From NCBI RefSeq assembly GCF_006517175.1, contig NZ_CP041186.1:2879001-2943000 (forward strand): a stretch of 64,000 bases of DNA. The letters run 5' to 3'. Both the position numbers and the translations under genes were made by a program. Of this stretch, positions 13,953 through 61,545 are shown one piece after another; position 1 is the stretch's first letter, and each line of letters starts with the position of its first letter. This DNA is from Persicimonas caeni (GTDB taxonomy: Bacteria > Myxococcota_A > Bradymonadia > Bradymonadales > Bradymonadaceae). Under the pieces are notes generated by a model. The model was not told the origin of the DNA and did no database searches. It saw only the letters and a list, made by a program, of their open reading frames with translations.

Positions 13953-15938
13953 ATGAATGGACGATATCAAGCAGCACTGCTGACCATGCTCTTGTGCCTT
14001 GGCCTGTCGGCCACGGCCTTCGCCCAGGTCCCCGCCACGATGACCTACCACGGCAAGCTGACCGACGGCGCCGGCCAACCGGTCGACACCACCGTCGGGG
14101 CGACCTTCCATATCTACGACGCCGCAACCGGCGGCAGTGAAGTATGGTCAGAAGAGTTTTCCACAGTCGATGTGAACAACGGCAGCTTCACCGTCCAGCT
14201 CGGCGCCAACCAGGCGCTCGACAACGTGTTCGACGGCAGCGCCTACTGGCTCGAGATCTCCGTCGACGGCGAGACGCTCAGCCCCAGGACGCCCATCGAG
14301 TCGGTGCCGTACGCGCTGCGCGCCGACAAGGCCAACAAGGCCGACGACGCGGACACGCTCGGCGGCCAGACCGCCTCTGACATCACCGCGGCCGCCCCCT
14401 CGACTGCCGCCGACCTCGCCTACGACAACACCCAGAGTGGGCTGACCGGCTCGGACGTGCAGGCCGCCCTCGACGAGCTCGCCCAGCTTCGCGCACGGGT
14501 CGACGCGCTCGAGGCGAGCATGCAGGATTCGAGCGGCAACGCGGTGACGCTGGCCGACCTAGACGCGCGAATTGCGGCGAACGCGGGTGATATTTCGACG
14601 AATGCCGGCGACATTTCGTCGCTTCAGACGAACGTGTCGACGAACACGAGCGACATCTCCTCGCTGCAGTCCAGCGTGTCGACGAACACGAGCGATATCT
14701 CCTCGCTCCAAACCAACCTGTCGTCGCTGGAAACCACCGTCTCGGGCAACACGACCGATATCTCCTCGCTGCAGTCCAGCGTGTCGGCCAACGCCACTGA
14801 TATTTCCTCGCTGCAGTCCAGCGTCTCCGGAAACACGAGCGATATTGCGACGCTGCAAACCACCGTGTCGGGCAACTCCAGCGACATCGCCTCGTTGCAG
14901 GCCGACGTGGCGAACAACGGGAACGCAATCTCGACGAATTACTCGACCATCGCCGCCAACCAGACCGACATTGCGGCCAACGCCAACGATATCTCGACCA
15001 ACGCCTCGGCCATCGCGACGAATAGCTCGGCCATCGCCACCAGCCAGACCGATATCGCGGCCAACGCCTCGGCCATCGCGACGAATGGCTCGGCCATCGC
15101 CGCCAACCAGACCGATATCGCGGCCAACGCCAGCGATATCTCGACCAATGCTTCGGCCATTGCGACGAATGGCTCGGCCATCGCCACCAACCAGACCGAT
15201 ATTTCGAACAACGAATCGAATATCCAGGCCAACTTCACCGCCATCAGCGCGCTCGAGACGCTGACTCAGGATATGAGTCGCACCACCATCAACGGTCAGC
15301 CGTCGGTAGCGTTTACCGGGGTGAATGTGCATGTGCGCAACGGATTGGGCGCGACGGATGGTGATACCGGCAATGGCCCGCAGGTCAACGGAGTGGGCAA
15401 TTTGGTCGTGGGGTATGATGAGGCGCGGTCCACGAATAGCGACAAGAGTGGGTCGCACAACGTCGTGATCGGCGACGACCACAACTACACCAGCTACGCC
15501 AGCCTCGTCAGTGGCCTCCGGCACAAAGCTACTGCGAAATACTCCACCGTAATTGGCGGCCTTAATAACCATGCGTCCGGCGACTACGCTTTCATCGGAG
15601 GGGGGTACAACCACAGCGCGTCCGGCACCGCCGCAGTGGTCGTCGGAGGGAACGATAGCAAGGCATTGGGCAGCTCGTCCACGGTCGTGGGAGGTTTCGT
15701 CAACACGGCGCACAGTTCAAATTCCACGGTCAGCGGGGGCGACCATAATAATGCGAACGGCTTTATATCCACAATCAGCGGTGGGGCGTATAACACTACA
15801 TCGGGCCGCGCCTCCTCAGTCAGCGGCGGCAGATCCAACACCGCCTCGGGCGACCACTCCTCGGTCAGTGGCGGCAACGGCCGCAGCGCGGGCGGGCCCT
15901 ACGACTGGCGAGCCGGGGGAATCTGGGAGACCGAGTAA
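13953..15938 (+). CDS. Long secreted coiled-coil protein with YadA-like head repeats
   Basis: 661 residues. Signal peptide about 1-24 (AFA/Q). Residues 30-130 form a beta-rich domain (TYHGKLTDGAG, ESVPYALRADKA) common in secreted structural proteins. Residues about 200-420 are a chain of 7- and 14-residue repeats of the type NTSDISSLQSSVS, then NASAIATNGSAIAANQTDI, typical of a trimeric coiled-coil stalk. Residues about 500-655 consist of GNNxASGxxSSVSGG-like repeats as in the left-handed beta-roll head of YadA-family adhesins. The order is reversed relative to trimeric autotransporters (head at the C-terminus) and no membrane anchor follows. A strong hairpin terminator lies downstream. Confidence 0.75.
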   Translation: MNGRYQAALLTMLLCLGLSATAFAQVPATMTYHGKLTDGAGQPVDTTVGATFHIYDAATGGSEVWSEEFSTVDVNNGSFTVQLGANQALDNVFDGSAYWLEISVDGETLSPRTPIESVPYALRADKANKADDADTLGGQTASDITAAAPSTAADLAYDNTQSGLTGSDVQAALDELAQLRARVDALEASMQDSSGNAVTLADLDARIAANAGDISTNAGDISSLQTNVSTNTSDISSLQSSVSTNTSDISSLQTNLSSLETTVSGNTTDISSLQSSVSANATDISSLQSSVSGNTSDIATLQTTVSGNSSDIASLQADVANNGNAISTNYSTIAANQTDIAANANDISTNASAIATNSSAIATSQTDIAANASAIATNGSAIAANQTDIAANASDISTNASAIATNGSAIATNQTDISNNESNIQANFTAISALETLTQDMSRTTINGQPSVAFTGVNVHVRNGLGATDGDTGNGPQVNGVGNLVVGYDEARSTNSDKSGSHNVVIGDDHNYTSYASLVSGLRHKATAKYSTVIGGLNNHASGDYAFIGGGYNHSASGTAAVVVGGNDSKALGSSSTVVGGFVNTAHSSNSTVSGGDHNNANGFISTISGGAYNTTSGRASSVSGGRSNTASGDHSSVSGGNGRSAGGPYDWRAGGIWETE

Positions 15939-16338: not shown

Positions 16339-16741
16339 AAAGGACCATGGGTCCTTCGGCGTCGCGGTCGGGTTGCGTGCAAAAGGACCATGGGTCCTTC
16401 CGCGCGGCGGCCGGGTTGCGATTAGAAGGACCATGCGTCCTTCCGCTTGCGAGCGAGTTGTGTGGAAAAGGACCACGGGTCCTTCAGTGCGGCGGCCCGG
16501 TTGCGTGCAGAAGGACCCTAGGTCCTTCAGTGCGGCGGTGGGATTGTGATCGAAAGGACGCTGGGTCCTTCCGCGTGCGGTCGAGTTGCGTACAGAAGGA
16601 CCCGGGGTCCTTCGGCGCGGCGGTCGGGTTGCGTGCAAAAGGACCGTGGGTCCTTCGGTGCGGCGGTCGGGTCGCGATTGGGAGGACCCTGGGTCCTTCG
16701 GTGCGGCGGTCGGGTTGCGTGCGAAAGGACCCTGGGTCCTT
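16339..16741. repeat. Tandem array of ten palindromes AAGGACCnnnGGTCCTT, period about 43 bp
   Basis: Ten 17-bp palindromes start at 16339, 16382, 16425, 16467, 16511, 16554, 16596, 16639, 16682 and 16725. Spacings are 43, 43, 42, 44, 43, 42, 43, 43 and 43. The arms are almost invariant, while the central triplet varies (ATG, ATG, ATG, ACG, CTA, CTG, CGG, GTG, CTG, CTG). Copies 3, 6 and 9 have one arm mismatch. The about 26-bp linkers are partly conserved (GTGCGGCGGTCGGGTTGCGT type). The period is not a multiple of three, so this is not a coding repeat. It lacks the unique spacers of a CRISPR array. Possible roles: phased protein-binding sites or an RNA hairpin ladder. Confidence 0.95.
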
Positions 16742-16775
16742 CGGCGCCGCGCGGGCGGCTTGCGATTGGACGGCA

Positions 16776-19040: not shown

Positions 19041-19153
19041 AGTCGTGATCGTGATCGTGATCGTGATCGGTTGTTGTCATTCGAGGGGGTGAAACAGCCG
19101 ATCACGATCACGACGACGATCACGATCACGACGACGATCACGATCACGGGATC
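19041..19153. repeat. GATC hexamer array in inverted orientation
   Basis: Eleven GATC sites occur in 107 bp, at 19047, 19053, 19059, 19065, 19100, 19106, 19118, 19124, 19136, 19142 and 19150. The left block is (CGTGAT)n and the right block (GATCAC)n, so the blocks are inverted repeats that can fold into a hairpin around a 31-bp centre. The right block runs into the 3-prime end of the ammonia-lyase gene (stop 19144-19146). It lies between two minus-strand genes. Confidence 0.9.
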
Positions 19154-20712
19154 GTGGGCGTTGTTTTGAGTGCCTTTGCGAGGGACTGGATCTCGGCCGA
19201 CAGTGACCGGTCTTCATCTACGAAGGCGCTGCGCGCCCTCACCCAATGAGCTATATTTTGTGAGCTCTCGCAGAAGTCGTCCCTCTCGAACCCTCCCACC
19301 AATTCGAAGCCCTGCACGAGCACCATCGCCTCGATGGCGAGTACTTCGTAGAGCCGTTCGAGCAGCTGCGAGGCGCGCAGCGCGGAAATGGTGCCCATGG
19401 TGACGACGTCTTGGTTGTTGGCGTTGGTGGGCACCGACTGGATGGAGGCGGGCGACGACTTGGTGCGCATCTCGGCGATGAGGGCGCTGGCGGTGACCTG
19501 CGCGCCCATAAAGCCGCTGTTCAGCCCGGTGTGGTTGCCCTGCATGAAGGCGGGCAGGCCGCCGTTGAGCGTGGGGTCGGTGACGCGGGCGACGGCGCGC
19601 TCGGCGTGCACGGCGAGCTTGATGATGGCGTTGGACAGCGCGTCGGAGGCAAACGAGATGTGCTGGCCGTAGAAGTTGCCGCCGTGGACGACGCGGCCGT
19701 TTTCGACGTCGAAGACGGGGTTGTCGGTCACCGAGTCGAGCTCGCGGGCGACGGTCTGGCCGTGGAAGTCGAGGGTGTCGAGTACGGCGCCGAAGAGCTG
19801 CGGGATACAGCGCAGCGTGTAGGCGTCCTGGGGCAGATCGCGGCCGTGGTCGACGGGGCCGTCGCCAGCCAGATCGAGGCGCGCGGGCTCGTCGGGGATG
19901 GGCTGGAGGCGCGCGCTCGACGCGGAGAGCGCCATCAAGCGCTCGTGGACGCTCCCCTGGCCGGGGTGCGGGCGCAGCCTGCCGAGCAGCGGGTCCCACG
20001 CCTCGCGCCGGCCTTCGAGCAGCTCGGCGTAGAGGACGGCCAGGCGCAGGGCGAGGTCGAAGGCCCTGTCGGTGTCGGTTTGATTGACCAGCGCGAGGCC
20101 GGTCATCGCCGAGGTGCCGTTGACGAGTCCCAGCCCTTCTTTATGGGCGATGTCGAGCGGCTCGAGGCCGACCTCGTCGAAGACCTCGGCCGCCGGACGG
20201 CGTTGGCCGTCGTACATGACGTCGGCCTCGCCCAAGAGCGCCAGGGCCATGTGGGCCAGCGGAGTCAGGTCGCCGCTGGCGCCGACGGTGCCGAGCGAGG
20301 GGATCACCGGCAAAATGTCGTGCTCGAGGCAGTCGAGGATGAGCTCGACGGCCCGCGGCCGCACCGCCGAGGCGCCGCGCGACAGGCTCACCGCCCGAGC
20401 GAACATCAGAGCGCGCACGTAGACCGGGGCGAAGGGCTCTCCGACGCCGGTGGCCAGGTGGTAGATCAGCTTGCGCTGCAGCTCGGCGGACTGGGCGGGG
20501 TCGATATATTGGGTCGCCAGCGGCCCGTAGCCGGTGGTCACGCCGTAGACGCGGCGTTTTTCGGCGACCATGCGGTCGAGCAGCTCGCGCGAGGCGAGCA
20601 TGCGTTCGCGTGCGGCGGGGCTCAGCTCGACGCGGCGGCGGCCGCGAACGACGTCGATGGCTTGTTGGACGGTGACGGAGTGATGCGGGTCGAGTGCGAG
20701 CGCTCGGCTCAT
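19144..20712 (-). CDS. Aromatic amino acid ammonia-lyase, predicted tyrosine ammonia-lyase
   Basis: MIO-dependent lyase that removes ammonia from an aromatic amino acid; tyrosine would give p-coumarate. 522 residues, the usual HAL/TAL length. The MIO-forming Ala-Ser-Gly is at 145-147 in GTVGASGDLTPLAHMA, and the catalytic Tyr56 is in VYGVTTGYGP. The selectivity position is His85-Leu86 (KLIYHLATG), which aligns with H89-L90 of Rhodobacter sphaeroides TAL (NLVHHLASG). Histidase has SH and PAL has FL there. The ATG overlaps the stop of the CoA-ligase gene (ATGA), so both act together. With the PYP-like gene next door, a chromophore pathway is the best reading. Phenylalanine or histidine activity cannot be excluded. 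Confidence 0.85.
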   Translation of the reverse strand: MSRALALDPHHSVTVQQAIDVVRGRRRVELSPAARERMLASRELLDRMVAEKRRVYGVTTGYGPLATQYIDPAQSAELQRKLIYHLATGVGEPFAPVYVRALMFARAVSLSRGASAVRPRAVELILDCLEHDILPVIPSLGTVGASGDLTPLAHMALALLGEADVMYDGQRRPAAEVFDEVGLEPLDIAHKEGLGLVNGTSAMTGLALVNQTDTDRAFDLALRLAVLYAELLEGRREAWDPLLGRLRPHPGQGSVHERLMALSASSARLQPIPDEPARLDLAGDGPVDHGRDLPQDAYTLRCIPQLFGAVLDTLDFHGQTVARELDSVTDNPVFDVENGRVVHGGNFYGQHISFASDALSNAIIKLAVHAERAVARVTDPTLNGGLPAFMQGNHTGLNSGFMGAQVTASALIAEMRTKSSPASIQSVPTNANNQDVVTMGTISALRASQLLERLYEVLAIEAMVLVQGFELVGGFERDDFCESSQNIAHWVRARSAFVDEDRSLSAEIQSLAKALKTTPTIP

Positions 20713-22259
20713 ACAGCTTCCTCGAAGGTGCCGATATCGGGCAACGAGCGCAGCTCGTCGCGAAGAACTTTGCCGGCGCCGTTTCGGGGCAATTCGTCGA
20801 CCACGAAGAGACGCCGGGGACATTTGTACCGCGCCAGAGACTGGGAACAAAACGCCACGATGGCCTCCAGCGAGATTTCGTCGCCCGCATCGTCTTCTTC
20901 GGGGACCACGGCGCAGCAGACCTGCTCGCCCCAGAAGTCGTCGTCGACGCCGAAGACGGCCGCTTCGGCGACGCCCGGCATCTGCCCGAGGACGCGCTCG
21001 ACCTCGGCCGGGTACACGTTTTCGCCGCCGGTGATGATCATGTCGCGGCGCCGGCCGACGATCGTGTAGCGGCCGTCTGCGTCCTGCCGGGCGATGTCGC
21101 CGCTGTGGAACCACCCGCAGCGAAGAGCGCGGGCGGTCGCCTGCGGGTTTCGCCAGTAGCCCTTCATGACGTTCGGGCCGCGCAGGATGAGCTCGCCGGC
21201 CTCGCCGGGCGCGACGTCGCGCCCCTCGTCGTCGACGATGCGCACGTCGACGAACTCGCCGGGAACGCCCACCGAACCGGCGTGCTCGACGGCGTCGCGT
21301 GGGCCGAGCAACGTGGCCATCGGCCCCGCTTCGGTCATGCCGTAGCCCTGCATGAGCGTCACGTCGTGCTCGGCCCACGCCCGGATAAGTTCGGGCGGGC
21401 ACGGCGCACCGCCGACGACGCCGCCTTTGAATTTCCCCATGGATTGGGCCAAGCCACTGTCAGCCTCCGCCTTGGAAAGACTGTCGAGCAAAGCCCGCCA
21501 CATCGTGGGGACCATGAACGCGCAGGTCGCGCCGGAGTCTCGGATGTGGGCGAGCGCCAGGTCGGGCTGGAAGCTCGGCACTAAAATGCTCGTGCCCCCG
21601 GCGAGCAGCAGCGGCCAGGTGAGCACGTTCAGCCCGGCGACGTGGAACATCGGGGCGGCTGCGTAGTTGATGTCGTCGGCTCCGAAGGGCAACTCCTGCA
21701 GGAATTGGGCGTGATTCCACAGCAGGTTGGCGTGGGTGTGCACGGCGCCGCGCGGGGTGCCTGTGCTTCCGCTGGTGTAGACGATGAGCGCCGGAGTCTC
21801 GGGGCCCGCCGGGGCATCCGTGGGCGACGCCAATGTATCGGCCACCATGTGGGTGACGGAATCGTCGAGTGGGACGTCGGCGTCGATCAGCATCACGGCG
21901 CTCGACAGCGCCGCCTCGAAGGCGAGCGTGGCGGTGCGCATCTCGTAGAACATCACGGCCGGGTCGGCATCCTCGATGACCGCGGCCAGCTCGACGGGGG
22001 CCAGCCGGTGGTTGAGCGGGACGAAGACCGCGCCGCGTAGCGCGCACGCGGCCTGCAGGGTGACCAGCGCGATGCGGTTGGGCATGAGCGCTGCGACGCG
22101 GTCGCCCGCGCCGATGTCGAGCCCGGCGAGTTGGGCGGCGCGTGTCTTCGTCATTCGCCACAGCTCGGCGTAGGTGACCTGACGCTCCGGCTCGATGAGC
22201 GCGATCTTGTCGGGGCGTGTGTGGGCGTGGTGTTTGAGCCAGTCGCTGCTGAGGAGCAT
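20709..22259 (-). CDS. Acyl/aryl-CoA ligase, predicted p-coumarate:CoA ligase
   Basis: ANL-superfamily enzyme that adenylates a carboxylate and transfers it to CoA. The 516 residues carry the full motif set: YTSGSTGTPRG (phosphate loop), GYGMTEAG, GWFHSGDIA, the hinge region GRRRDMIITGG and the catalytic lysine in LPRNGAGK. Sequence alone gives a broad ligase class. The 4-bp overlap with a predicted tyrosine ammonia-lyase gene points to p-coumarate as substrate, giving p-coumaroyl-CoA. The upstream leader is C-rich (CCCCAAACCCC) with no clear ribosome site. Divergent from the PYP-cyclase gene, with which it shares a 189-bp promoter region. Confidence 0.85.
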   Translation of the reverse strand: MLLSSDWLKHHAHTRPDKIALIEPERQVTYAELWRMTKTRAAQLAGLDIGAGDRVAALMPNRIALVTLQAACALRGAVFVPLNHRLAPVELAAVIEDADPAVMFYEMRTATLAFEAALSSAVMLIDADVPLDDSVTHMVADTLASPTDAPAGPETPALIVYTSGSTGTPRGAVHTHANLLWNHAQFLQELPFGADDINYAAAPMFHVAGLNVLTWPLLLAGGTSILVPSFQPDLALAHIRDSGATCAFMVPTMWRALLDSLSKAEADSGLAQSMGKFKGGVVGGAPCPPELIRAWAEHDVTLMQGYGMTEAGPMATLLGPRDAVEHAGSVGVPGEFVDVRIVDDEGRDVAPGEAGELILRGPNVMKGYWRNPQATARALRCGWFHSGDIARQDADGRYTIVGRRRDMIITGGENVYPAEVERVLGQMPGVAEAAVFGVDDDFWGEQVCCAVVPEEDDAGDEISLEAIVAFCSQSLARYKCPRRLFVVDELPRNGAGKVLRDELRSLPDIGTFEEAV

Positions 22260-22448
22260 GGGTGGGTAGGGGGTTGGGGTTTGGGGGCCTATGGCCTTGG
22301 TCTTGGATTAGATGCGGTGGGGGTGGGGGGAGTTACATGGGTGGGTTCGCGTGGGGCGAAGGAAAAATTCGCGTGTAACGCATTGTGGTGGCGTTGCATC
22401 TGAGGAATGCACTGCATCTAAGGCGACACGCTGCATATCGGAGTTCGT
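22260..22448. promoter_or_regulatory. Divergent promoter region between ligase/lyase operon and PYP-cyclase gene
   Basis: 189 bp hold both promoters. A direct repeat is visible: TGCATCTGAGG (22395-22405) and TGCATCTAAGG (22413-22423), 18 bp apart, followed by TGCAT at 22432. The core GCATCTAAG recurs before the bilin reductase gene (25834) and, inverted, upstream of the XRE regulator gene (30813). CGGAG lies 6 bases before the ATG at 22449. The repeat may be the operator of a shared regulator. Confidence 0.5.
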
Positions 22449-23486
22449 ATGACGCATTACAAAAAGCCCGACCTCGAGCCTGCCATCCTGGAGGCTTGCC
22501 TCGACCAGCTTCCCATCGGCGCGATCCTCGTCGACGACGAGGGTGTCATCAAGCGGTTCAATCGCTACGAGGAGCAGCTTTCGGGGCGGTCGCGCGAGAA
22601 GGTCATCGGGCGCTCGTTCTTCTCCGATGTGGCGCCGTGCACCAACGATATCGAGCTGGGCGCCCGCTTTCGGGAGGGGATCGAAGACGGAAACCTCGAC
22701 ATCGATATCGAGTTCAGCTTTCCGTACCCGTACAACCGCGTGGCCCGCGACGTGCGCATCCGGGCGACCTCGGTGCACGGCCAAGAGGACCATATCAACC
22801 TGGTCCTCATCGAGGAGATCACCAGCCGGCGCGAGCTCGAGCGTAACAACCAGACGATGATGGCGAGCCTGCGGGCAATGATCGGCGCCGACGCGGTCGG
22901 GGACGCCGACGAGCGGAAACCGGCCGCCACGGTGACCCGCCAGAAGGCAGTGTGCCTGCTGGCAGACTTGTCGAGCTATGCGTCCGTGGCTCGCGAGGTG
23001 GCGCCCGACGAGCTGTTCGGCCTGCTCGATGGGCGCATTCGTCGCGCCGTGGCCGCCATCCACCGCTACGGCGGACATATCGACGAGATCACCGGCGAGG
23101 CGGTGCGGGCCTACTTCGTCATCGAGGAGCGTGAGGAGGTGCACAACCAAGCCTTCTTCAACGCCCTTCGGGCCGCGCGCGACATCACCGGAGAGCGAGG
23201 CGACGCCGAGTTCGAGCTGCCCTTCCGGGTGGGCATCGCCAGCGGCGAAGTCATCCAGGGGCAGCTGGGACGCGACGAGTTCTCCCAAAAGGCGACGGTG
23301 GGGGCGGCCTTTACCGCCGCCAGTCGCCTCGCCTCATTGGCCGGCGAGGCGCAGACGATGATGGCCGCCGACGTCGAGGAGCGCGTGCGTGAGTCGGTGG
23401 GCACCAGCGAGGTGCCGCGCATGCCCATTGTGGGCCTCGATGAAGTCTGGCCGGTCTATCGCCTCGAGCGAGTCGACCTTCCCTGA
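22449..23486 (+). CDS. Photoactive yellow protein domain fused to class III nucleotide-cyclase domain
   Basis: 345 residues, probably cytosolic. Residues 10-124 align with Halorhodospira halophila PYP at a constant offset of 5 through at least residue 93, with no gap. C64 equals C69 (p-coumaroyl thioester site, DVAPCT), E41 equals E46, R47 equals R52, S45 equals T50 and F37 replaces Y42; the following FREGIEDGNL also matches. A helical linker (125-160) leads to a class III cyclase fold (165-330). There Asp173 is kept, but the other metal Asp is Glu217, the substrate Lys is Glu213, the adenine Asp is Ala286 and the Asn is Thr289, while Arg293 is kept. Output activity is thus uncertain. Divergent lyase/ligase genes could supply the chromophore. 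Confidence 0.88.
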   Translation: MTHYKKPDLEPAILEACLDQLPIGAILVDDEGVIKRFNRYEEQLSGRSREKVIGRSFFSDVAPCTNDIELGARFREGIEDGNLDIDIEFSFPYPYNRVARDVRIRATSVHGQEDHINLVLIEEITSRRELERNNQTMMASLRAMIGADAVGDADERKPAATVTRQKAVCLLADLSSYASVAREVAPDELFGLLDGRIRRAVAAIHRYGGHIDEITGEAVRAYFVIEEREEVHNQAFFNALRAARDITGERGDAEFELPFRVGIASGEVIQGQLGRDEFSQKATVGAAFTAASRLASLAGEAQTMMAADVEERVRESVGTSEVPRMPIVGLDEVWPVYRLERVDLP

Positions 23487-23554
23487 AGTTTCGCGCGGGC
23501 AACACGCCGCCGGCTACCTTTTTCGAGCACCAGTCTCGAGCACAAGGCTTGAAA

Positions 23555-25399
23555 GTGAGCACGCAAACGCGAACAACGACGACCATCGAACCGGGCGCGA
23601 CGTTGATGGGGCGCTACGTCATCGAGGGCTGTCTGGGGAGCGGAGGCATGGGCAAGGTGTACCTGGCCCGCCAGCACCCGTTCGACCGCAAAGTCGTCAT
23701 CAAGGTCATGCACGATCGGCACGTGGCCAACGACCAGTTGCGCCAGCGCTTTTTCAACGAGGCGCAGGCGGCAAGCCAGCTGTCGCACCCCAACACGATC
23801 ACGGTCTACGACTTCGGTGAGGCCGACGACGGCATGCACTTCATCGTCATGGAGTACGTCGACGGGCGCTCGCTGCTCGAAGAGCTCAACGACAACGGGC
23901 CGATGTCGGTGGCGCGTGCGGTCCCGCTGGTCGTGCAGGTCGCCCAGAGCTTGGGCGAGGCGCACCGAAAGGGGATCATCCACCGCGACCTGAAGCTCGA
24001 GAATATCATGATCTCGGCGGTCGGCTCGGGCGACGAGTTCGCCAAGGTGCTCGACTTCGGGATCGCCAAGCTCACCGAGAAGAAGGTGGGGCTGACCCAG
24101 ACGGGCTCGGTGTTCGGCACGCCGGGGTATATGCCGCCCGAGCAGGCCAACGGAAACGACAAGATCGACGCCACCGCCGATCTGTACGCGCTGACTTGCT
24201 GCCTGTACGAGTTGCTCACAGGCCGGCTGCCGTTCGAGGGGGAGTCGGCGTTGGCGGTCCTGATGAAGCATCAGACCGACCCGCCTCCCAGTCTGCCCGA
24301 CCATCTGCCGCGGCGCCTCGACGCGTTCATCAAGCGCGGCATGGCCAAGCAGCCGCGCCATCGGCCCCAGAGCGCCGACGAGTATATCGCCGGGCTGCTC
24401 GCCTGTTTCGTCGACCGCGACAAAGCCGCCGGTCGGCGCAGGCCGCGCGAATCGTCGTCGTCGCACCCGAACATCGCGAGTGCGCAGACCAATGAAGGTA
24501 CGCCACCGGGACCGAAGACCACCCGCCGAAAGGCGTCGGATGTGCACTCGCGGCCGACGATGCAGTCGCCGGTGCCCCAGCAGAAGCTCGATCGCGCCGC
24601 GATGGACGACCTGGGTCGAGCCAAGACGGCCTCGGGCGAGCACGACAGTATGTCGCCCAGGTTGCCGACGCCCCAGCCGAGTCCGAGTACCCCGGTGCCG
24701 CGTCTCGAGAAGAGGGAGCTGACAGGTGAGCCGACGCACGAGACGGGCCGAGACGTGTCCGAATCGCGCCCGGGCACTGGCGCTCGACCTGGCGAGCCGA
24801 CCGACACGCGCGTCCCTCTAAGCTGGGTGGTCGCCGGCGGGTCGGTGCTCGTCGCTACCGGCGCTCTTCTCTTTGCCTTCAACAGCGCCCCCGAGCCCGC
24901 CCGCCCCTCCGCCAGCGCGGCAGCGACGAAGACGCCCGCCAAAGTCGAGCTGACCGTGGTGAGCGAGCCCGAGCGCGCCAGCATCTTCGCCGACGGCCAG
25001 CGCGTGGGGATCACCCCGGCAACGCTGAGCTTCGACGACGGCGAGACTGTCGACCTGCGCATCGAAAAGAGAGGGTTCCGCCCCGAGACGTTCGATGACT
25101 ACAGAGTCGGCACCGCCGCCGACGGAAAGCTCGTGGTGCCGCTGGAGGCGGCCACGATCACCGTCACGGTGACCTCCCCGGATGCCGACGGCGAAGTGCT
25201 CGTCAACGGTGAATCGTTCGGAAGTCTGTTGGCGGGAGCGAGCCGTCGACTCGAGGTGAGCTGGCCGAAAGACGCGTTGGAGGTGCGCATTCGCTACGCC
25301 GACCGCGCTGACTACGTCGAGCGCATCCCCGCAGGGGCGATCTCGACCGACGTCGAAATCGCCCCTGCGGCCGATGAAGCGCTGGGGGCGAAGAAGTAG
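23555..25399 (+). CDS. Hanks-type Ser/Thr protein kinase with TM segment and PEGA domain
   Basis: 614 residues from the GTG at 23555, which has AAGG seven bases upstream; a TTG two codons earlier is the alternative. Kinase residues: GSGGMGKVY at 28-36, Lys50, HRDLKLEN at 143-150, DFG at 167-169 and GTPGYMPPEQ. A long Pro/Ser-rich linker (about 285-415) leads to one membrane helix (about 427-447), then a PEGA domain (about 465-530) outside the membrane. This is a normal bacterial receptor-kinase plan. The gene starts 68 bp after the PYP-cyclase gene on the same strand, so co-transcription is likely and it may be the output kinase. Its stop is four bases from that of the ferredoxin gene. Confidence 0.9.
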   Translation: MSTQTRTTTTIEPGATLMGRYVIEGCLGSGGMGKVYLARQHPFDRKVVIKVMHDRHVANDQLRQRFFNEAQAASQLSHPNTITVYDFGEADDGMHFIVMEYVDGRSLLEELNDNGPMSVARAVPLVVQVAQSLGEAHRKGIIHRDLKLENIMISAVGSGDEFAKVLDFGIAKLTEKKVGLTQTGSVFGTPGYMPPEQANGNDKIDATADLYALTCCLYELLTGRLPFEGESALAVLMKHQTDPPPSLPDHLPRRLDAFIKRGMAKQPRHRPQSADEYIAGLLACFVDRDKAAGRRRPRESSSSHPNIASAQTNEGTPPGPKTTRRKASDVHSRPTMQSPVPQQKLDRAAMDDLGRAKTASGEHDSMSPRLPTPQPSPSTPVPRLEKRELTGEPTHETGRDVSESRPGTGARPGEPTDTRVPLSWVVAGGSVLVATGALLFAFNSAPEPARPSASAAATKTPAKVELTVVSEPERASIFADGQRVGITPATLSFDDGETVDLRIEKRGFRPETFDDYRVGTAADGKLVVPLEAATITVTVTSPDADGEVLVNGESFGSLLAGASRRLEVSWPKDALEVRIRYADRADYVERIPAGAISTDVEIAPAADEALGAKK

Positions 25400-61143: not shown

Positions 61144-61257
61144 GGGACTCCCTTGCGGTCGCCCCGGGCTACCGAGGCCTTCGTTTCGCTTCGCTTCACT
61201 TCGGCGCGGCGCGGACTACGCGCCTAGGACTTCTCCTTCGACACGCCTCGTTCGGCA
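61144..61257. repeat. Half copy (B) of the 60.5-kb foldback
   Basis: About 114 bp repeat the left half of copy A with few changes, up to CCTTCGACACGCCTCG; the right arm is absent. The 41-bp tandem array begins within about 10 bp of the break. Confidence 0.8.
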
Positions 61258-61264
61258 CGTGTTT

Positions 61265-61545
61265 TGGAAGAATCTCTGGCCTTCCGAGCCGCTCGGCGCC
61301 GGTCTTGGAAAAATCTCTGGCCTTCCGAGCCGTTCGGCCCGTGTCTTGGAAAAATCTCTGGCCTTCCGAGCCGTTCGGCGTGTCAGCGAGAGAAATCTCT
61401 GGCCTTCCGAGCCGTTCGGCGTGTCAGCGAGAAAAATCTCTGGCCTTCCGAGCCGTTCGGCGCGTCAGCGAGAAAAATCTCTGGCCTTCCGAACGGCTCC
61501 GAACGTTTCCGAGAAGAGTCTCTGACCCTCCGAGCCGTTCCGATG
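61265..61545. repeat. Tandem array of seven 41-bp repeats
   Basis: Units containing AATCTCTGGCCTTCCGAG followed by CCGTTCGG start at 61271, 61312, 61353, 61394, 61435, 61476 and 61517 (the last is degenerate), each exactly 41 bp apart. The array sits between the ASRT gene and pgpA (stop 61580). 41 is not a multiple of three and no start or domain fits, so it is not coding. A CCGA/TCGG inverted core is in each unit. Spacing is about four helical turns, as in the 43-bp array at 16.3 kb. Confidence 0.93.

Follow-up and report, generated by a model that had tools for sequence, protein, structure and literature searches.

The gene at positions 22449–23486 (+ strand) of the window, a 64,000-nucleotide stretch of the Persicimonas caeni genome, encodes a 345-aa protein in which a photoactive yellow protein (PYP) domain is fused to a class III cyclase homology domain (PYP-CHD). 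The fusion had been proposed in a first-pass annotation and was borne out by the TIGR02373 profile, PDB searches and a VIA fold match. From its sequence, we regard PYP-CHD as a genuine PYP whose output architecture, the fusion to a cyclase fold, is new. We favour, at a probability of roughly 0.6, a chain in which a chromophore, the PYP domain, a pseudo-cyclase adaptor and a partner kinase would be linked. P. caeni YN101 is a predator that comes from a solar saltern (PMC7188933). The genome examined here consists of a single contig of 8,047,206 bp. The ORF opens with an ATG and has a GGAG-like sequence upstream, and two further genera of the family (genomes G015 and G016) have orthologues, which are 50–59% identical. 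The AlphaFold model of PYP-CHD has a mean pLDDT of 85.8, with most of the PYP domain above 90. A signalling helix or linker (residues 125–144; 22821–22880, +), assigned from the AF2 secondary structure, follows an EITSRR motif at the PAS C-terminus, and PYP histidine kinases carry a similar motif.

By profile, PDB and structural (AF2, Foldseek) comparison, residues ∼10–125 (22476–22823, +) are a genuine PYP domain. The NCBIfam model TIGR02373 'photoactive yellow protein' matched residues 15–108 with an E-value of 9e-27, far better than the generic Pfam PAS model (3.7e-9), which is the comparison that the first-pass annotation had put forward as a check. The score of PYP-CHD (93.6) lies below the curated cut-off of 143, as do those of nearly all PYPs of the phylum, where just 1 of 379 genomes passes. 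In the PDB sequence search, the best 33 matches were PYP or PYP-derived chains (E 5.8e-22 to 8e-13), with the PYP of Ppr (1mzu, 5.8e-22) at the top, and the first non-PYP PAS domain appeared at 0.019. Best matches to non-PYP PAS domains, which would have spoken against the assignment, were thus not seen. Foldseek likewise matched the N-terminal part of the model to 1mzu (41% identity). A generic PAS domain was ruled out by the profile and PDB searches.

The PDB alignment confirmed the proposed correspondence with Halorhodospira PYP at a constant offset of 5 (C64 = C69, with its codon at 22638–22640, +; E41 = E46; R47 = R52; S45 = T50; F37 = Y42), although the alleged FREG/GNL likeness did not hold as worded, since H. 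halophila reads FKEG, not FREG, there. In PYP numbering, all three orthologues retain I31, N43, E46, F62, F63, V66, A67, P68, C69, T70 and F96, and all three carry Y42F and T50S. Differences between PYP-CHD and the H. halophila protein are Y42F, T50S, Y94F, F28I and F75L; F28I and Y94F are unusual pocket residues and are counted against the favoured explanation. According to two PYP surveys, Y42F occurs in ∼9% of PYPs, and the 2022 survey has no Cys69 PYP in which Y42 and E46 are both changed (PMC9664959, PMC12826048).

The TIGR02373 search of the 379 phylum genomes returned the fusion in three genomes only, corresponding to 3 of the 57 genomes of the class and to three genera of one family. 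The other multidomain PYPs scanned carried a histidine kinase, V4R, phytochrome-histidine kinase or uncharacterised C-terminus. Beyond the phylum, the fusion was sought by two contig scans: the scan with the single PYP-CHD protein as query gave no matches, and the alignment-based scan returned one MAG, Bradymonadaceae bacterium LUM.15, with the same contig as G015. The 2025 survey, which covers 984 PYPs and 153 multidomain proteins, names phytochrome, histidine kinase, GGDEF/EAL, V4R, REC and MCP as partners; class III cyclases are absent from its main text, and an unlabelled example in the figures or supplements is possible (PMC12826048). Ppr and Ppd, named in the first-pass annotation as the known PYP fusions, both exist, but that list was incomplete, because PYP-HK, PYP-V4R, Rec-PYP and MCP-PYP are also published (PMC12826048).

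In a tree of 62 PYP domains, the three fusions group together (support 100/97), and PYP-CHD is sister to five PYP-HisKA/HATPase kinases of Myxococcota (L071, L073, L065, L074 and L075), with a joint support of 100/100 that may be raised by the part of the linker taken into the alignment. Because the fusions nest with these histidine kinases, an exchange of effectors appears to have taken place inside a single PYP subclade. Both groups have an N-terminal PYP, a PAS C-terminal linker motif and then an effector, which is a histidine kinase in the one and a cyclase fold in the other; Phe at position 42 is shared by 3 of the 5 kinases. Unlike PYP-CHD, their loci showed no TAL, pCL or Ser/Thr kinase in the flanks read. 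In Ppr and Ppd an N-terminal PYP is also the input of a multidomain signalling protein, but these contain phytochrome plus a histidine kinase or GGDEF/EAL, whereas Pfam found neither phytochrome nor histidine kinase nor GGDEF in PYP-CHD. The BLUF photoactivated adenylyl cyclases bPAC and OaPAC likewise join a blue-light domain, a helix and a class III cyclase fold; they are active cyclases with a flavin BLUF sensor, whereas the sensor here is PYP and no BLUF match was found in Pfam.

Further PYP genes were noted. A second PYP of the same genome (L018:7281-8072) has Tyr42 and an N-terminal coiled-coil-like region, and is flanked by a weak Roadblock/LC7 match on one side and a DUF892 protein on the other. 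Five loci (L060, L045, L050, L066 and L069) form a PYP clade with a ∼210-aa C-terminal region that has no Pfam match. At L035, a PYP frame read from stop to stop has a dual-specificity-phosphatase-like domain upstream, a putative fusion.

The neighbours of PYP-CHD point to a chromophore supply. A divergent AMP-binding acyl-CoA ligase gene (20709–22259, −; AMP-binding 9e-88), with a homologue beside TAL in G015 and G007, encodes a probable p-coumarate:CoA ligase (pCL), and its stop codon is overlapped by the ATG of an aromatic amino-acid lyase gene (19144–20712, −; Lyase_aromatic PF00221, 4e-157), a probable tyrosine ammonia-lyase (TAL). It is this overlapping TAL gene that makes p-coumarate the probable substrate of pCL. 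The lyase belongs to the expected family and contains the MIO Ala-Ser-Gly and the selectivity His, the latter in a YHL motif present in the lyases of all three loci (for the role of His89 in selectivity, see PMC8773403). The sole other aromatic lyase of the genome has an SH motif. A Ser-His pair is of the histidine ammonia-lyase type, and a housekeeping histidine ammonia-lyase was ruled out for TAL on the ground that the other lyase bears this motif. A TAL homologue lies beside PYP-CHD at all three orthologous loci and pCL at two of them (it was not found in G016 within the 20 kb read), and the gene arrangement differs between the three genera. TAL is present in just 5% of predicted pyp operons according to the 2025 survey (PMC12826048), so that linkage at 3/3 loci is notable. 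With a CoA ligase and a TAL-type lyase as divergent neighbours, the cell probably has the means to produce p-coumarate and to load it. The 189-bp intergenic region common to pCL-TAL and PYP-CHD (22260–22448, from the ORF positions) contains short direct and inverted repeats, possibly by chance.

Elsewhere in the window, ∼ten 43-bp tandem units, each with a AAGGACCC-GGGTCCTT palindrome, lie between genes at 16339–16764, and ∼seven 41-bp tandem units (GAAAAATCTCTGGCCTTCCGAGC...) at 61249–61542. A 661-aa protein (13953–15938) has repeated coiled-coil-like units (DISSLQT, AIATN) and resembles the stalk and head of a trimeric surface adhesin.

The C-terminal part of PYP-CHD (residues 163–345; 22935–23483, +) is weakly matched by Pfam PF00211 (E 7.5e-4, under the cut-off). 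The PDB sequence search returned Rv1625c at 2.4e-7, with Rv1625c and OaPAC spanning 2e-7 to 4e-7. VIA aligned the domain model to CyaB (3r5g) with a Z of 22.9 and an rmsd of 2.4 over 184 residues, and OaPAC and bPAC were among the structural matches. In the model, the class III cyclase fold of residues ∼163–345 is unambiguous. The first-pass annotation was silent on the state of its catalytic residues, as it was on the kinase gene downstream. By alignment, the six catalytic positions are D173, E213, E217, A282, T289 and R293; canonical cyclases of the same genome and of relatives have D, K, D, T, N and R (one relative has A for T). PYP-CHD thus retains 2 of the 6, the metal Asp173 and the transition-state Arg293. 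At the other four positions, E213, E217, A282 and T289 stand in place of the Lys, a metal Asp, the adenine-pocket Thr/Asp and the transition-state Asn. The set that defines a class III cyclase (two metal Asp, a base-specifying pair, and transition-state Asn and Arg) is not complete here. The G015 orthologue reads D, K, D, A, T, K (three lost) and that of G016 D, E, Q, A, L, A (five lost).

The transition-state Asn is thus gone from all three orthologues, and the remaining losses differ between them. Such a pattern would be expected had selection for catalysis ceased, and we term the domain a pseudo-cyclase, its most likely nature as judged from the residues. Between orthologues, the PYP domains are 76–82% identical and the cyclase domains 36–53%. 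Of the earlier proposal of a light-regulated cyclic-nucleotide sensor or its derivative, light sensing stands, strengthened by the linked TAL and CoA-ligase genes, and 'derivative' fits better, but a light-regulated cyclase does not accord with the lost residues.

Directly downstream of PYP-CHD, on the same strand, lies a gene for a Ser/Thr kinase (23549–25399, +; Pkinase E 8e-48) with a PEGA domain (5e-6) and a probable TM segment between the two, a hydrophobic stretch judged by eye. We propose this kinase as the output partner. A PEGA Ser/Thr kinase gene occupies the same place in all three genera, a linkage that partly reflects shared ancestry, given that only three orthologues were present in the genomes examined. 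Each of the four cyclase-domain genes found in this genome (PYP-CHD, L096, L097 and L098) either directly adjoins a Ser/Thr kinase gene or is fused to one. With ∼130 kinase matches in the genome against the 6009 proteins reported for P. caeni, chance adjacency would be ∼2% for each. The same pairing was observed for 3/3 cyclase-domain genes in the relative G005 and for at least 2/3 in G008, the pairs of these genomes and of P. caeni being partly orthologous and not independent. The two canonical pairs of P. caeni have intact cyclases, and the pairing there may therefore run through cAMP rather than contact. A literature search found no report of such kinase-cyclase pairs. L098 is a fusion of kinase, cyclase domain and ATPase in which the cyclase motifs, inspected by eye, look degenerate. 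In the TOMM kinase/cyclase fusions (TIGR03903), to which L098 is related by domains, a cyclase fold is coupled to a Ser/Thr kinase as proposed for PYP-CHD, but both domains are in one chain and PYP is absent.

Kinase linkage was also observed in a second PYP lineage. A Ser/Thr kinase gene lies directly upstream of PYP-V4R in 7 of 8 sampled loci of Myxococcota (L053, L054, L082, L083, L084, L085 and L042). PYP-V4R resembles PYP-CHD in that a non-catalytic-looking C-terminal domain follows the PYP; it differs in the V4R C-terminus, in the upstream position of the kinase and in belonging to a separate PYP clade. The other PYP loci had no adjacent kinase within the flanks read, some of which were only ∼1.5 kb. 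An adjacent bacterial Ser/Thr kinase is not mentioned in the main text of the two PYP surveys (PMC9664959, PMC12826048). These gene associations suggest that PYP-CHD probably controls the adjacent Ser/Thr kinase.

Alternative readings concern both ends of the protein. The PYP domain might lack p-coumarate, and respond to another signal or be a relic, with TAL and pCL serving another pathway. The four departures F28I, Y42F, T50S and Y94F would fit such a domain, but the Cys, Glu46 and the pocket are invariant at high identity in three genera, TAL is linked in each of them, and Y42F PYPs are common in nature (PMC9664959, PMC12826048); we consider this reading highly improbable. The cyclase domain, for its part, might be active after all, making PYP-CHD a natural PYP-based photoactivated cyclase that couples blue light to cAMP or cGMP through an atypical active site. 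Its fold is complete, Asp173 and Arg293 are retained, K, D and D persist in the G015 orthologue, and some class III cyclases depart from the canonical residues. The loss of four of six residues here, of three in G015 and five in G016, and of the Asn in all, together with the faster divergence of the cyclase domain than of the PYP domain, makes an active photo-cyclase very unlikely.

Class III cyclases dimerise and form composite sites, and the genome encodes two intact cyclases, so the degenerate domain could make up half of a heterodimeric cyclase, regulating an intact cyclase encoded elsewhere. Each half would, however, have to supply either the full metal pair or the full Lys/Asp/Asn/Arg set, both of which are absent, and the gene linked to PYP-CHD codes for a kinase rather than a cyclase; we give this arrangement hardly any credence. 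It is unlikely, too, that the domain acts as a nucleotide sensor, which would bind ATP/GTP or a cyclic nucleotide without turnover and join light and nucleotide state upstream of the kinase or another target. All three orthologues preserve the fold and one metal Asp, and PYP-V4R has been proposed to integrate light and a small-molecule signal (PMC12826048), but the base-recognition positions vary among the orthologues.

We therefore return to the pseudo-cyclase adaptor, for which the following model is proposed. PYP-CHD would act in the cytosol as a receptor for blue light. The divergent operon, through TAL and pCL, would provide p-coumaroyl-CoA, and p-coumarate would be attached to Cys64, as the residues and the linkage suggest. 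Blue light would isomerise the chromophore, and the PYP signalling state would be passed through helix 125–144 to the dimeric cyclase-fold domain, an architecture comparable to that of BLUF-cyclases and PAS-histidine kinases. The degenerate domain (its degeneracy being seen in sequences from three genera) would serve as a conformational adaptor without cAMP production, and its contact may raise or lower the activity of the adjacent Ser/Thr kinase. This last step is proposed on account of the gene order in three genera, the 4/4 cyclase/kinase pairing and the kinase linkage of the second PYP lineage.

Although PYP is one of the best-studied photoreceptors, the 2025 survey regards its signal transduction chain as an important gap (PMC12826048). 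The locus offers a concrete candidate chain in one operon pair, comprising pigment synthesis, sensor, adaptor and kinase. More broadly, we see even odds that PYP signals via Ser/Thr (Hanks-type) kinases in Myxococcota and relatives, with a light-driven pseudo-cyclase adaptor switching a membrane kinase, an undescribed route used by two lineages (PYP-CHD and PYP-V4R). If true, Ser/Thr phosphorylation would join the PYP outputs, and the locus would suggest that catalytically dead cyclase domains can act as kinase adaptors.
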